A stretch of 64,000 bases of DNA from Shouchella oshimensis. Its GTDB lineage: Bacteria; Bacillota; Bacilli; Bacillales; Bacillaceae_D. Every line of letters begins with the position of its first letter. Within the stretch, counting starts at the first letter, position 1. The stretch lies in the NCBI RefSeq assembly GCF_002019765.1, contig NZ_KV917380.1, forward strand, positions 9,454-73,453, read 5' to 3'. The notes beneath the pieces were generated by a model, which saw only the letters and a program-made list of their open reading frames with translations, did not search any database and had not been told where the DNA came from. Made by a program: the position numbers and the translations under genes. Of this stretch, positions 48,682-56,672 are shown piece after piece.

Positions 48682-49350
48682 ATGTCAACAGAAGAAAACA
48701 TACTCGTTTGCGTAAACTATGGACATAATGGAAAAAAGCTTATTACGAGAGGTGCTGGATTAGCTAAACAATTAAACGCTCCTTTAACTATACTTGTTTT
48801 TGATTCTTTACCTGATGAAGAATTTAAAAATGATAAAGAAGTAGATATGACTTTTTTTCGTGAACTAGCTGATACATATAAAGCTACTCTTCTTGTGGAA
48901 AAGTCACATTATCACGATATTACAAAAGTCATTACATCAAAAGCCAAAGAGTTACGTGTCTCACAAATTATCATAGGTCAGTTTATTGAAAGCATTTGGG
49001 CGAAGTTGCTTGGTGGATCAATTGTACACGAATTATTAGAGGGTGCCCCATTTGCTGATCTTCACGTTGTTCCGAGAGAACGTGCTGAGGAGACAGAAGA
49101 CTGGAATTTTGAACGCGGTGTTCATGCTTATTTAGTAGAAGATGAAGAAGGCACCTTTATTCTTCATTTTGATGACCTAGATGGACAAACATATGAAGGT
49201 ATTTTCTTCAAACATTTACAAACCGATTTTAATAGTGGAATCTTCGCCCTAAAAAAAGAAGACCAACTTTTAGAAGTGCGAGTTGACGATGGGAAAGTAG
49301 TTAGTTTAACCGACATCGATGAGGAAGAAGTAAAGGATGACCACTCTTAA
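48682..49350 (+). CDS. Universal-stress-like protein with acidic C-terminal domain
   Basis: The N-terminal 140 residues look like a universal stress (KdpD/OKCHK-type) fold: NILVCVNYGHNGKKLITRGAGLA, PLTILVFDS, KELRVSQIIIGQF. The C-terminal 80 residues (VHAYLVEDEEGTFILHFDDLDGQ...) form a separate acidic, beta-rich part I do not recognise. Nucleotide binding is possible but unproven; the GxxG loop typical of ATP-binding Usp is not clear. AAGGAG precedes the ATG. It is the only plus-strand gene here, with a SigB-like promoter, followed at once by the nested palindromic element. Absent here in B. subtilis. Confidence 0.75.
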   Translation: MSTEENILVCVNYGHNGKKLITRGAGLAKQLNAPLTILVFDSLPDEEFKNDKEVDMTFFRELADTYKATLLVEKSHYHDITKVITSKAKELRVSQIIIGQFIESIWAKLLGGSIVHELLEGAPFADLHVVPRERAEETEDWNFERGVHAYLVEDEEGTFILHFDDLDGQTYEGIFFKHLQTDFNSGIFALKKEDQLLEVRVDDGKVVSLTDIDEEEVKDDHS

Positions 49351-49563: not shown

Positions 49564-51186
49564 TTATTGTCTAGCTCTCACATCTTGTGCGTATGAAATG
49601 GACCCTTCATACCGTGTTAGTACCCCTTCTTGTAACCAGTACGTAATAGGAAAATATTTATTAAGAAAATACCGATCGTGAGAGATCGTTATAACCGTTC
49701 CGTCATAGTGATCGATTGCTTCTTCTAGCACTTCTCTCGATTCAATATCAAGGTGATTGGTAGGTTCATCTAATAGAAGTACATTATGAGATTCTTCCAT
49801 TAGTTGCGCTAACCGTAACCGCATTCGTTCTCCTCCACTTAAGTCCTTTGTTCTCTTATAAACATCCATACCATAAAATAAAAACTGTGCAAGCTTCGAA
49901 CGAGCTGCCCCAATATCAATAGTGGCATATTCTCGATAAGCCTCTAGAACGGTCTTTTCATTCATTAATTCAGGAATATGCTGTGACAAATAGCCCGCTG
50001 AAACACTTGCTCCCACCTTAACATTCCCTTTTTGCGGAGAATATTTCCCGAGCAATAGTTCGAAAATTGTCGATTTCCCTTCCCCATTTGGGCCAGTTAT
50101 GGCAATACGTTCTTGATGTCGTGCAAGAAAGTGAGCTTCCTTAAGAATAACGTTAGTATGATAAGCAAAGAAGACGTCCTTAATTTGAAACACCTCTTCA
50201 CCACTACGGTGAGATTCAGTAAAGCTCAAATCTACCTTCTTTCCATAAACAGGTTTTTGTAGAAGTTGTATTCGATTTAATGCCTTTTCCATGCTTTTTG
50301 CTTGTCTATGCATACCTGCATTAGGCGGATTTGCTCGGTTTGCCCATTCTTTTAAACGTTTGATGGTTTCTTTCATTTTTTTTATTTTCTTTTGCTGATC
50401 CTCATAGTGCTGAAATGCTGTAAGCAATCGCTCTTCTCTCTGTTGAATAAAACTGGTGTAATTCCCATTATATTCATATACCACACCTTGATCCATTTCC
50501 CATACTTTTGTTATCACTTGATCCAAAAAAAAGCGGTCGTGGGATATGAGAACAAGACTACCATCATATTGATTCAACCACTGAATTAACCAGTCTACAG
50601 CAAGAAGATCCAAATGGTTGGTAGGTTCATCAAGGATAATAAGGTCTGGCCTCTTTGCGATCATACAAGCAAGTTCAACTTTGGAGCGTTCTCCGCCACT
50701 TAACTGCTCCCACTGCTGACCTAGCAATGGTTGCAGACCCAAACCTGTAGATACTTTACGTATAGTAGAATGGTAGTCATATCCTCCACTTATGCTGTAT
50801 CGTTCCTGTAGTTCGGCATAATCGTTTAGCAACTGGGACAGCACTTGCTGATTTTGCGGCTTACTCAATTTCACTTCAATGCCTTTCAACTTTTTTTCTA
50901 TTTCCTTTAATGAAGAAAAAGGAAGTTCTAACACATCCTTTACAGAAAGACCCTCATAGTGTGGCGTTTGGTTTAACAAGGCTTTCGTCAATCCCTTGCG
51001 CCAACCTACTTCACCAGTTGAGGGTTTTTCTATACCAGCTATTAGCTTAGCTAATGTAGATTTTCCCTCCCCGTTCCTGCCAACTAATCCAATGCGCGCC
51101 CCTACATGTAGTTGAATGGATACGTGCTCAAAAATTTGATTCCCTGCATAATTTTGAGCTATATTTTTTCCGTAAAAATCAATCAT
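49564..51186 (-). CDS. ABC-F ATPase, probable ribosome-protection type
   Basis: Two ABC domains in one chain without membrane segments. NBD1: Walker A GLVGRNGEGKST (about 33-44), signature LSGGERSKVELA, Walker B LIILDEPTNHLD. An inter-domain linker with KKIKKMKETIKRLKEWANRA follows (about 250-300). NBD2: Walker A ITGPNGEGKST, LSGGERMRLRLA, VLLLDEPTNHLD. ABC-F proteins act on the ribosome; some protect it from antibiotics (Vga, Lsa, VmlR), others are housekeeping (EttA, YfmR). The upstream leader ORF and attenuator favour an inducible resistance-type role, an inference. AAGGAG is 6 nt from the ATG at 51186, giving 540 residues; the open frame runs to 51222. Confidence 0.85.
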   Translation of the reverse strand: MIDFYGKNIAQNYAGNQIFEHVSIQLHVGARIGLVGRNGEGKSTLAKLIAGIEKPSTGEVGWRKGLTKALLNQTPHYEGLSVKDVLELPFSSLKEIEKKLKGIEVKLSKPQNQQVLSQLLNDYAELQERYSISGGYDYHSTIRKVSTGLGLQPLLGQQWEQLSGGERSKVELACMIAKRPDLIILDEPTNHLDLLAVDWLIQWLNQYDGSLVLISHDRFFLDQVITKVWEMDQGVVYEYNGNYTSFIQQREERLLTAFQHYEDQQKKIKKMKETIKRLKEWANRANPPNAGMHRQAKSMEKALNRIQLLQKPVYGKKVDLSFTESHRSGEEVFQIKDVFFAYHTNVILKEAHFLARHQERIAITGPNGEGKSTIFELLLGKYSPQKGNVKVGASVSAGYLSQHIPELMNEKTVLEAYREYATIDIGAARSKLAQFLFYGMDVYKRTKDLSGGERMRLRLAQLMEESHNVLLLDEPTNHLDIESREVLEEAIDHYDGTVITISHDRYFLNKYFPITYWLQEGVLTRYEGSISYAQDVRARQ

Positions 51187-51207
51187 TTGCTTCTCCTTTT
51201 TAGTCAA

Positions 51208-51223
51208 GAAAGAAACAAACACG
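51208..51223 (-). other. 3' arm of the outer leader helix
   Basis: Complementary, with a 4-nt bulge, to 51276-51287, which lies directly after the leader stop codon. It would close a large helix around the attenuator hairpin. Confidence 0.5.
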
Positions 51224-51227
51224 AAAA

Positions 51228-51247
51228 AGCAGCGAAAGATCGCTGCT
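51228..51247 (-). terminator. Attenuator between leader ORF and ABC-F gene
   Basis: AGCAGCGA/TCGCTGCT 8-bp perfect stem, 4-nt loop, with five T and T-rich sequence on the minus strand, 41 nt upstream of the ABC-F ATG and after the leader ORF. A terminator ahead of a coding region implies conditional readthrough. Confidence 0.75.
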
Positions 51248-51286
51248 GCATGTGTTACGTATGCGAGTAGACAGACGTGTTTCTTT

Positions 51287-51421
51287 CTAATGGTTTATTT
51301 TTCTATACAGTTGTTTAAAAACGGACAGACTGATCCAATTTTTAACTACCGCCGAAAAAATCGCCTGACAAATCCATAAATACGCTAATCGTTTTGCCTG
51401 GCTACCATTAAAAGAATTCAA
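51287..51421 (-). CDS. 44-residue leader ORF upstream of the ABC-F gene
   Basis: AGGAGGTGA, one of the strongest ribosome sites in the window, is about 5 nt from a TTG at 51421. The product begins MNSFNGSQAKRLAYLW, has an aromatic hydrophobic core (ICQAIFSAVVKNWISLSVF) and a basic tail ending RKINH. Its stop codon adjoins the 5' arm of the outer helix. It fits a regulatory leader peptide whose stalled translation exposes downstream pairing; a self-standing small membrane-active peptide is the alternative. No known relative comes to mind. Confidence 0.65.
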   Translation of the reverse strand: MNSFNGSQAKRLAYLWICQAIFSAVVKNWISLSVFKQLYRKINH

Positions 51422-51550
51422 TCTACTCACCTCCTACTTTATTTGTTTTTACGTTACCTGAAAAATGAAAAAATGTAAAGGAATTTAAACCAGCTCTAAG
51501 TGATCTTTTCTGTTCATTCTATTGGATCGTTTCGACAAAAGAAATGTAAA

Positions 51551-51589: not shown

Positions 51590-53845
<2,256 letters not shown>

Positions 53846-53875
53846 AATATAGCGAACTATACATCTATCTGTCAA
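53846..53875 (-). promoter_or_regulatory. metG SigA promoter
   Basis: Minus strand TTGACA (53870-53875), 18 bp, TATATT (53846-53851). The -35 overlaps the last codons and stop of herA. Confidence 0.75.
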
Positions 53876-55704
53876 GTGCGATCATAAAGAGTAGCAAACG
53901 GTGTTTTTTGTTTTGTTAAAAGGCCATCTTCACACAGTTGTTCTAACGATTGTTTCCATTCTGATACATCCCACGATTTTCCTGACTGTTTATTTAATTC
54001 ATCAAGTTTTTGCATGACGTGCATTTCTGCCAGAGGAAGAAAATCTTCAAGTGCTGCAACTAATTCTTCATTTCCAGCATTATTCATTTGTTCAAGCTCA
54101 TCAAATGGGTTCATCGTATGTGGGCTAGTTGAGTGAGCGAGCCGTATTCGAACAGCAACGGTTCTACCGATAATGGCTGAAGAAACAAACACATCCCCAG
54201 ATTGTAAATACGGAAGCCGTTTTCCTTCTTCTGCCGTTAAATCTGTTTCTTCCTTTATCGTTTGAATATCCGTTCCTCGAACCGTTCGAAAAACAAACTT
54301 AGAATTAAGCTGTGCCGTAATCGTTTCATCCAGCAAGGTTGGGCGTTGTGTAGCAAAAATCAAAAACGTCCCATACTTTCTTCCTTCTTGCGCAATTTCT
54401 TTCAGTACTGATTTTGCTGGTGCTTCATATCCTTTAGGTGCAAAGTTATGTGCCTCATCTGTGACAACAACAAACGGTGGAAAGAATTCGCTTTGCTGTT
54501 GTTGTAGCTTTGCATCTTTATAAGCGCGACGTTTAAAGTAAAGAGTTCCTATCACGTAGCTGGCAAACACCTGTAGTAACCAAACAGCCCCTTGAATCAC
54601 AACAAGTTTGCCGTTATGAATGCCGTGCTCAATCGCTCGAATGTTTTGTTGAAAAAGCCCTGACTGATGTAAACGATTTGCACGCCATTGGATACCCTTT
54701 ACAGAAGATGGGGGCAAGCTACCAAACTGATCGAGTAAACGTTTGAATTCACTATAGCGATTAATTTCATCTTTTGTCATGCCACCATCATGCAGCATGC
54801 CTTCGATCCTTTGTTTACCCATATCCAGTGCATCTATTAAATTGGCAATTCGATCACTAAACGTTTGATAACTGTCTTTTCGTTTATGAATCGTTTGAAT
54901 AACATTAATCATTGATTCAGTAAGGTGACCTGCCGCTCCAAGCAATCTCTCTACATCTCGAGTTGATAATGCCGAAAAATCAACACCGACGTCCCGACCA
55001 ATTTGAACAACCTCATACCTAGAAGCATAGTTAACGTCCCCACGATCTGCTTCTGTTTTGCCAGTAAAATTCATTTCAAAGTGTGGATCAAATACAAGAG
55101 AAGGAATTTTTAATTTCATCAATTCTTCTAGCATTACTCTTAAACCAAACGATTTACCTGATCCTGAGCCACCAAACACACCAATATGTGGGTACTGCTG
55201 CATAGCACGAATATCGAAAATAAACGGTACACCATTTTGTGCTCTCACCAATCCGTGTTCTTGCATATGCAAAATGTCATGTAACTGTGCCGGTAACGAC
55301 TCTGCGATAAAATCAGTAGACTTAATTTCCCCTAATACCATGCCTTTTTCTTTCGACGTTGAAACAAGCAAATGCTCAATCTCACTAAATGCTGGATGAC
55401 GTACACGGACGCCTGTTTGAATGGGCTTTTGAGCCTCGTCAAATAAACGCACCTTTGCAAGATGAATATCATCTTGACCGATGTCATACCCAATGGCCTC
55501 AAGAGTCTCTAACACATTTCGATCGACTAAACCTTTATCCATTCCCATTGGTATATAGCGATTATAAGATAAGGTTTCTACAACTTCACCTTTAGGTTCA
55601 TTCAGCTCTTTATCTTCAATAACAAGCATTTCATTCATGCGGAACTTATGTGATTTTGATGCAATATGCACTTCATGTTGAGTAGTAATTCCAACAACTT
55701 GCAA
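53872..55704 (-). CDS. herA: HerA-like DNA translocase ATPase
   Basis: FtsK/HerA-type hexameric ATPase. An N-terminal HAS-barrel-like beta domain (about 1-95) precedes the motor, with Walker A GGSGSGKS (178-185), Walker B FVVVTDEAH (411-419), sensor ATQRP (about 451) and a likely Arg finger in EGRKYGTF. 610 residues. HerA partners the NurA nuclease in archaea and some bacteria for DNA-end resection. Here nurA lies just upstream (14 nt), so the two form an operon. The last residues vary from archaeal HerA. Its stop codon overlaps the metG promoter -35. Confidence 0.87.
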   Translation of the reverse strand: MQVVGITTQHEVHIASKSHKFRMNEMLVIEDKELNEPKGEVVETLSYNRYIPMGMDKGLVDRNVLETLEAIGYDIGQDDIHLAKVRLFDEAQKPIQTGVRVRHPAFSEIEHLLVSTSKEKGMVLGEIKSTDFIAESLPAQLHDILHMQEHGLVRAQNGVPFIFDIRAMQQYPHIGVFGGSGSGKSFGLRVMLEELMKLKIPSLVFDPHFEMNFTGKTEADRGDVNYASRYEVVQIGRDVGVDFSALSTRDVERLLGAAGHLTESMINVIQTIHKRKDSYQTFSDRIANLIDALDMGKQRIEGMLHDGGMTKDEINRYSEFKRLLDQFGSLPPSSVKGIQWRANRLHQSGLFQQNIRAIEHGIHNGKLVVIQGAVWLLQVFASYVIGTLYFKRRAYKDAKLQQQQSEFFPPFVVVTDEAHNFAPKGYEAPAKSVLKEIAQEGRKYGTFLIFATQRPTLLDETITAQLNSKFVFRTVRGTDIQTIKEETDLTAEEGKRLPYLQSGDVFVSSAIIGRTVAVRIRLAHSTSPHTMNPFDELEQMNNAGNEELVAALEDFLPLAEMHVMQKLDELNKQSGKSWDVSEWKQSLEQLCEDGLLTKQKTPFATLYDRT

Positions 55705-55718
55705 AGCGATCCCTCCTT

Positions 55719-56672
55719 TTAATACGGCCGTTCCGTTCGCAATTTCACAAAGAATTGTCGACGAATGTCTTCATCAATATATTGTTCTACTAACCCTTCA
55801 ACAAGCTTGTCTGTTATGCGAATTTCCTTATCAATATGATCTAGCCAGAGTGGTATACCACGACCTTCAGACGGAGTAAGCGTACAGAGTAAATCACCAA
55901 TCCAGTTTAAATGATCCCTTTGCTCTTCTAATAGATCAAAGCCTGTAATGGTTGGGGTTGATCCGAGTCGCATCCACGTTGAAAGTAAACCTGCTTTATG
56001 TTGAATCGTATCAATATAAATCATTTCGTTTTGATCAAGCATGCCAAATAACAAATCTCGGTCATAGGAATAAGGGTTTCGCGCATAAGTCGCAAAACTT
56101 TCTAACGTAATAAGATTTTCTGTTGTAATTTCTTCAGATACACCCACTAATAACGTATTTCGTTTCAACGCTGATTCTCGAAGTTCTTCCCACTCCTCTT
56201 TCGCATCAATTCGATAGTGATAAAGCGCACCGTCCATTAACATGACAGCAATATCGTCTTTTTCAATTAAAGAGCGCGCCGCCTTTAACTCTAGAATCGC
56301 TAAACGTTTTGCCCGTTGTTTACTAATTGCTTCCTCTTCTTCATCGCCATGTTCTAATAAAGGAATAAATAAATCAGATGTCCATTCGGCACGACCGTCG
56401 GTTGCCTTTGAAATGGCTTGAAACAAATAAATAATATGGGGTGCTTCACCTTTCGTCTGATTAACGGACCCATCGGTTCCTGCTAATTTCCGACCAGCTA
56501 AGGTCTTTACAAGATGATCTGTAGATAGTCGCTCCATTTGTCGAAAAACATTTGCTTCTTTCGTCAATTTTTGTCGAATTAGGTCTTTGTTTCTATGACT
56601 CTGCGCATATGTATCTTTTAATCTTTGATTTGATTCTTGCAATTTTACAATTACATCTGCATGAATATCCAT
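55719..56672 (-). CDS. nurA: NurA-domain nuclease
   Basis: Predicted Mn2+-dependent 5'-3' nuclease partner of HerA. The NurA signature shows as LAGTDGSVNQ with Asp67 and LMDGALYHY with Asp147; the conserved C-terminal RNPYSYDRDLLFG and HKAGLLSTWMRL follow. An N-terminal coiled segment (about 1-55) precedes the core. 317 residues. AGAGAGGAG precedes the ATG. It is divergent from abrB, and neither gene is between abrB and metS in B. subtilis. Confidence 0.82.
   Translation of the reverse strand: MDIHADVIVKLQESNQRLKDTYAQSHRNKDLIRQKLTKEANVFRQMERLSTDHLVKTLAGRKLAGTDGSVNQTKGEAPHIIYLFQAISKATDGRAEWTSDLFIPLLEHGDEEEEAISKQRAKRLAILELKAARSLIEKDDIAVMLMDGALYHYRIDAKEEWEELRESALKRNTLLVGVSEEITTENLITLESFATYARNPYSYDRDLLFGMLDQNEMIYIDTIQHKAGLLSTWMRLGSTPTITGFDLLEEQRDHLNWIGDLLCTLTPSEGRGIPLWLDHIDKEIRITDKLVEGLVEQYIDEDIRRQFFVKLRTERPY

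Follow-up and report, generated by a model that had tools for sequence, protein, structure and literature searches.

Which signal sets the expression of the ABC-F gene that follows metS in Shouchella oshimensis, and by what pairing would the RNA in front of the gene read it? Control by attenuation has been shown by experiment for the ABC-F genes vmlR and cplR, as reported in PMC9226507 and PMC10201436. A preliminary description of the window, the stretch of 64,000 nucleotides of S. oshimensis DNA analysed here, had proposed that a translated leader attenuates transcription of the ABC-F gene. The 44-codon leader open reading frame (ORF) with its Shine-Dalgarno (SD) sequence, the terminator hairpin and the ABC-F ATG are all found on the minus strand where that description had placed them (Table 1), and attenuation by a translated leader is backed by conservation of the ORF, by RNA helices and by the link to the gene.

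Organization of the leader region

The leader sits between metS and the ABC-F gene on the minus strand. A candidate promoter read from the sequence is absent from the output of a consensus promoter scan, and inspection of the upstream DNA of a related locus, L002, reveals a promoter-like TTTACA-N17-TAATGT. A program-made list of ORFs gives a longer, GTG-started form of the leader ORF with 47 amino acids (51430-51287). The predicted fold of the 273-nt leader has a free energy of -77.4 kcal/mol (z -4.88), and none of 200 shuffled sequences folds equally well. At the gathering cut-off, Rfam models match only 16S, one tRNA and one T-box in the whole window; a low-score match to Termite-leu covers a hairpin behind metS and was set aside. 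The T-box leader (103 bits; 53602-53825, minus strand) stands ahead of metS, and adjacent genes for HerA (DUF87) and NurA domain proteins (53872-56672, minus strand) form a HerA-NurA pair beside metS.

Table 1. Features of the leader region and of the ABC-F gene, in window coordinates.
Feature	Position	Strand	Remark
Candidate promoter, TTTACA-N17-TAACGT	51451-51479	minus	Read from sequence
Leader SD, AGGAGG	51430-51435	minus	Retained in relatives
Leader ORF (uORF), 44 codons	51287-51421	minus	TTG start at 51421, stop at 51289-51287; coding constraint at motif
Switch helix, 5' arm	51404-51430	minus	End of leader SD, start codon, codons 2-6
Conserved leader-peptide motif, codons 13-22	51356-51385	minus	Here AYLWICQAIF (QAIF, codons 19-22)
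Apical hairpin within helix P1	51307-51349	minus	GGAU..GUCC (51336-51323), then GTTTTT
Switch helix, 3' arm	51263-51294	minus	Holds anti-SD strand UCUACUCGC (51271-51263)
Enclosing helix	51208-51287	minus	51287-51276 with 51223-51208; alternative partner of switch strand
Candidate antiterminator	51240-51266	minus	UCGC (51266-51263) with GCGA (51243-51240, terminator 5' arm)
Intrinsic terminator hairpin	51228-51247	minus	8-bp stem, then TTTTC
Hairpin occluding ABC-F SD	51185-51220	minus	51220-51206 with 51198-51185
ABC-F gene, 540 aa	49564-51186	minus	ATG at 51186; NF000355 and ABC_tran domains

The ABC-F protein scores 440.7 bits with the NCBIfam model NF000355 (ribo_prot_ABC_F; cut-off 380) and contains two ABC_tran stretches and ABC_tran_Xtn. 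Among the best 25 of 193 NCBIfam matches, the Vga, Msr, Lsa, Sal, OptrA and CplR models stay under their own cut-offs, and identity to OptrA is about 35%. The best match to PoxtA spans the same length in both proteins (93-510 with 90-507), suggesting that the interdomain loop is similarly short, and the loop of VmlR is longer. The protein may act in resistance. The genome contains three further long ABC-F matches, and the leader precedes only one of the ABC-F paralogues. Convergent to the ABC-F gene, a weak match to a universal stress protein (22.7 bits, cut-off 24) lies at 48682-49350 on the plus strand.

Conservation and genomic distribution of the leader

A protein search of 40 related genomes gave 30 loci, and the upstream DNA of 27 of them (L001-L027) was examined. 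A leader ORF of 33-49 codons with an SD sequence is found in 25 of the 27; L027 has no leader, and L015 has none in the 171 nt upstream that were examined. The preliminary description had left conservation of the leader ORF in relatives to be checked, and the ORF is indeed conserved. A covariance model of the motif and the hairpin, R1, was built from 22 of the 25 sequences, with the near copies L003, L006 and L008 left out. It finds a single copy in the genome of S. oshimensis. Among 398 Bacilli genomes from 146 genera it matches 55, each of them once, and these represent 27 genera. A DNA pattern scan gave 71 named loci, including loci in Exiguobacterium, Sporolactobacillus, Virgibacillus, Heyndrickxia, Neobacillus, Cytobacillus, the B. 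licheniformis group, Listeria and Shouchella.

Both scans are blind to the neighbouring gene. For the R1 scan, tblastn with the window protein finds a same-strand ABC-F gene downstream in all 28 examined loci (28 of the 55 matches); for the pattern scan it does so in 63 of the 71 loci, the other eight having at most 269 nt of sequence. Both scans together thus place an ABC-F gene downstream in all 91 gene-blind loci with enough DNA. Apart from the genome's own match, 29 of the 55 R1 matches were examined; L051, in which the search expression found no hairpin, was dropped although an ABC-F gene follows it. R1 loci L032, L037 and L049 are re-found bait loci, and L066, L094, L096 and L107 are among the pattern loci that coincide with bait loci. 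The leader sets leave out L015 and L027 (no leader), L068, L087 and L107 (too short) and L122 (odd spacing), as well as L028-L030 and L132-L143; removal of 33 near-identical loci reduced 121 loci to 88. L128 (Virgibacillus subterraneus) and L046 have in common an extra stem-loop, AAGGCTTTCGCC...TTGGCGATAAGCC, inserted no more than about 200 nt past the leader hairpin; in L128 it stands between P1 and the switch strand, and it may be a small repeat.

Selection on the leader peptide

The family motif has the consensus [FY]LxxC[RQ]AIF. The coding test used 41 nonredundant loci and left out those from the DNA pattern scan, in which GCGATTTTT is fixed by the search itself. Over codons -6 to +3 of the motif, 1659 of 5603 differing codon pairs (29.6%) are synonymous in the ORF frame, compared with 8.9% and 6.6% in the two other frames. 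In the same loci, the early leader codons have no in-frame synonymous excess (7.3, 8.5 and 6.2% over the three frames), and neither do the codons past the motif, where the ORF frame is the lowest (7.1% versus 16.1 and 8.8%). The leader peptide is under coding selection at the motif. This test at the motif rules out both a chance ORF and a riboswitch that operates independently of translation.

Of the 53 loci obtained without the pattern, 52 have the Ala of the motif, encoded by four different codons, a frequency to be read with the search expression in mind, which demanded Ala or Thr at this position and was matched by every locus. In all but one of 124 loci (123), the first codon of the motif (Arg or Gln) is separated from the GT of the hairpin by 36-38 nt, with 30-62 nt allowed. 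The phase of the hairpin relative to the ORF frame varies (25, 15 and 1 loci), and therefore the hairpin is kept for its RNA and not for the amino acids it encodes. The Phe codon of the motif is TTT in all 37 Phe cases among the 41 loci; it falls within a U run, perhaps a second pause site.

Structure of the leader RNA

The preliminary description had left the switch mechanism open, having seen no clear antiterminator pairing. In the predicted fold of the window, the ribosome binding site (RBS) of the leader is paired with a strand located after the ORF, forming the switch helix. The pairing was examined by a swap test, in which each strand is given the partner of another locus, with 2000 permutations over 87 loci below 85% identity. 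Codons 2-9 pair with their own partner at -12.75 kcal/mol versus -8.55 kcal/mol with swapped partners, the SD strand at -15.73 versus -12.07 kcal/mol, and P1 at -11.43 versus -6.42 kcal/mol (p<=0.0005 in each case, 87 loci); two control strand pairs in the same test give p=0.53 and 0.39. These narrower, controlled tests supersede an earlier wide-window version, in which own strands gave -33.5 and swapped ones -26.9, the own partner ranking first in 8 of 88 loci. The helix between the leader RBS and the post-ORF strand shows strong covariation, and covariance of the leader in relatives, put forward earlier as a check, is thereby observed at p<=0.0005 for the switch helix.

Helix P1 carries the apical hairpin. 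In the window fold P1 is formed in a shifted register (51349-51344 with 51315-51310), the family register (51349-51344 with 51312-51307) has a probability of 0.0, and the apical hairpin forms. In alignment A2, P1 and the apical hairpin contain 16 cells changed on both sides compared with 7.3 in shuffles (0 of 500 as high), and the number of pairs changed on both sides is unexceptional (6 versus 4.2; 54 of 500). A listing of all column pairs of the alignment was uninformative. The U-followed apical hairpin resembles the vmlR pause hairpin with its TTNTTT described in PMC9226507, and by this analogy RNA polymerase may pause after it.

Termination and antitermination

Between 49300 and 51700 there are six terminator-like sites, compared with 1.6 (sd 1.2) in shuffles. 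In a simple scan, 84 of 88 nonredundant loci have one or more terminator-like hairpins. The exceptions are L013, L088, L090 and L116, and for L013 a separate inspection shows one; across loci, one to three such hairpins lie downstream of the switch strand.

Pairing between the anti-SD strand and the terminator's 5' arm gives p=0.0026 over 83 loci, p=0.0004 in the 54 loci with a single terminator and p=0.052 for the last of several terminators; controls with the 3' arm give p=0.14 and 0.11. Measured against dinucleotide shuffles, the effect across the family is slight, with a mean z of -0.37 and 69 of 114 hairpins scoring below 0. In the window itself the candidate antiterminator has 4 bp at -5.2 kcal/mol and is no better than shuffles (z +0.9), and in a 17-locus subset around the window p=0.30. 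The antiterminator is thus supported across the family and not in the branch of the window. The gap left by the preliminary description is therefore filled in part: a covarying RBS helix with the post-ORF strand has been found, and the antiterminator is significant family-wide and not in the window or its branch. In equilibrium folding with the leader kept open, the terminator of the window remains at 0.95, and therefore antitermination would need co-transcriptional kinetics.

Features specific to the Shouchella-type branch

A second helix, which begins at the leader stop codon and encloses the terminator, had been pointed out in the preliminary description. This pairing is possible, by inspection, in nine of nine nonredundant loci of the branch, and it has about 0 expected pairs in the equilibrium fold of the window because its 5' strand is taken by the larger switch helix. 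It is only modestly better than shuffles in the nine branch loci (z -0.5 to -2.9), and its covariation is not significant, with p=0.098 in the branch of the window and p=0.47 in 11 other loci. As the main switch, the enclosing helix was rejected for its lack of significant covariation and its absence from the equilibrium fold; it seems to be a feature of the Shouchella-type branch.

Loci of the Shouchella-type branch offer the switch strand a further possible partner, the sequence that precedes the ABC-F SD and otherwise folds back on it. By analogy with vmlR and cplR, the enclosing helix may provide an additional lock at the level of translation. Whether the ABC-F SD is released was examined by equilibrium folding in 20 loci, with starts taken from an automatic leader-start finder; release is predicted for four of nine branch loci, but not for the window (0.03 to 0.05), and for 0 of 11 other loci. 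By eye, this finder chose wrong frames for L054, L055, L059, L060, L098 and L033, and it gave no start in 10 of 124 loci.

Members in Listeria and on staphylococcal plasmids

The Rfam model rliI (RF01487) matches the whole leaders of two L. monocytogenes loci, L147 (291.9 bits) and L148 (282.6 bits), where it lies directly upstream of the ABC-F gene, which in L148 is two genes before guaB. Other Listeria loci score 46.4 (L084), 44.1 (L118) and 44.4 bits (L119), so that the 45-bit covariance threshold is reached in L147, L148 and L084; matches in further genera are below it. A search of 398 genomes with rliI gave 25 matches, none above the cut-off, and the 14 control genomes gave none; R1 also finds 23 of these 25 places, all but G170 and G223. 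The rliI model does not match the window up to E=5, and R1 matches both the window and the rliI loci, tying one to the other. The L. monocytogenes leader encodes MFLLNARTSIAKFLYIVRAIFS... with the motif FLYIVRAIF, and it has the RBS helix and an ABC-F gene downstream. L. monocytogenes rliI is the Listeria member of this leader family and encodes its motif.

rliI differs from the window leader in being filed as a Listeria small RNA gene. It was detected as a short RNA, and term-seq identified it as a putative conditional terminator of lmo2760, according to the review PMC8079631; because rliI stands before it, the L. monocytogenes ABC-F gene would be lmo2760. RliI is reported to bind the lmo1035-lmo1036 mRNA (PMC8079631) and Rli51 (PMC11394854). 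No mention of a uORF in RliI is found in the available portions of Listeria RliI literature such as PMC8079631 and PMC11394854.

Three staphylococcal plasmids (L144-L146) carry an ABC-F gene whose product is 46% identical, preceded by a leader of the same build (MFLIAYCCRYLQIIRNKF...) with the RBS helix and the SD hairpin. A terminator scan of 271 nt around each of the three found none, and judged by their sequences these leaders look like a translation-only version. Their R1 scores are weak (16-24 bits, E 0.03-0.7), so it is their layout and motif that argue for kinship. In this motif Asn replaces the Ala of the family, which counts against a strictly Ala-dependent inducer. A type I Fst toxin gene is located nearby in all three plasmids, and a recombinase gene lies upstream in two.

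A model for regulation of the ABC-F gene

There is a good likelihood that the window leader senses ribosomes and attenuates the ABC-F gene in the manner of vmlR and cplR, with a uORF that is long and conserved. RNA polymerase would make the leader and, once past the apical hairpin, probably pause at the U run. When the leader is freely translated, its RBS would be cleared and would pair with the post-ORF strand in the switch helix, so that the terminator forms and transcription stops. When ribosomes stall at the [FY]LxxC[RQ]AIF motif, others would queue back to the start codon and cover the RBS; the anti-SD strand, left free, would pair with the 5' arm of the terminator or terminators, and the ABC-F gene would be transcribed. 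In the branch of the window there is in addition the ABC-F SD hairpin, with which the freed strand could compete. We infer stalling, queueing and readthrough from these elements, and the inducer would presumably be a ribosome-targeting drug whose action the ABC-F protein relieves. A phenicol- or oxazolidinone-type inducer is a guess: the near-invariant Ala and the length match to PoxtA make this class a reasonable first test, and no more.

The leader resembles that of vmlR of B. subtilis in having a uORF inside the anti-antiterminator, a pause-like hairpin, a terminator and an SD-sequestering hairpin; it differs in that the vmlR uORF has three codons (MIN) with arrest at initiation (PMC9226507), whereas the uORFs of this family contain an internal motif. 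Conserved uORFs also precede the ABC-F genes cplR, for which attenuation has been shown, vmlR2 and lsaA, but these encode MR[I/M], MK[L/Q] and MAGN, are 3-4 codons long and are unlike the window peptide (PMC10201436). A long conserved ABC-F uORF is not described in the available portions of PMC9226507 and PMC10201436. In the Bacillales leader uORFC-6-1, too, a structured RNA and a conserved peptide motif stand ahead of a gene for ribosome rescue, but its motif is Arg-Leu-Arg and its gene is hflX (PMC8632094).

It is conceivable, if doubtful, that the leader senses initiation, with the drug holding ribosomes at the leader start so that the RBS stays open and the motif merely tuning transit. The 5' arm of the switch helix consists of the RBS and the first codons, as would be expected of such a sensor, and VmlR and CplR, whose uORFs have only three codons, offer a precedent, VmlR induction relying on arrest during initiation (PMC9226507, PMC10201436). 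However, an initiation sensor needs neither coding selection at codons 13-22 nor a fixed distance between the motif and the hairpin, and both are found.

It is unlikely that the motif arrests ribosomes independently of any drug or senses the state of the cell, with the ABC-F protein as a housekeeping-like rescue factor and the circuit giving feedback on stalling instead of resistance. Such a role would suit a protein that, among its best 25 NCBIfam matches, exceeds the cut-off of only the general model NF000355 and has a shorter interdomain stretch than VmlR, and Arg-Ala-containing arrest peptides (RAPP-like) are known (PMC12992588). Yet one ABC-F paralogue alone in the genome has the leader, and the occurrence of like leaders before plasmid-borne ABC-F genes in staphylococci fits resistance better. 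A main role of the RNA as a trans-acting small RNA, proposed for rliI and in line with the reported binding partners of RliI, is very improbable given the same-strand ABC-F gene 3' of every gene-blind element with enough DNA, the coding-constrained ORF and the covarying internal pairings, although the terminated leader of the attenuator may act in trans as well.

An extension of the attenuator model can be offered as a speculation with little chance of being right in full. In it, [FY]LxxC[RQ]AIF would be a class-wide, hitherto unrecognised context-specific arrest peptide, the Ala two codons before Phe would occupy the -1 position favoured by phenicols and oxazolidinones, and the ABC-F protein would relieve that stall; rliI would be the terminated leader of this class and the staphylococcal plasmids would carry its terminator-less, translation-only version. 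The Asn of the three staphylococcal leaders speaks against this extension, as does the demand for Ala or Thr built into the motif search.

Implications

One regulatory family unites an arrest-like leader peptide, a covarying RNA switch and one group of ABC-F genes across Bacilli, and its long conserved motif is a directly testable case of sequence-specific stalling. For Listeria, rliI, whose proposed trans targets belong to sugar metabolism and a pathogenicity island, gains a simpler primary role as a cis-acting leader, matching the hint from term-seq.
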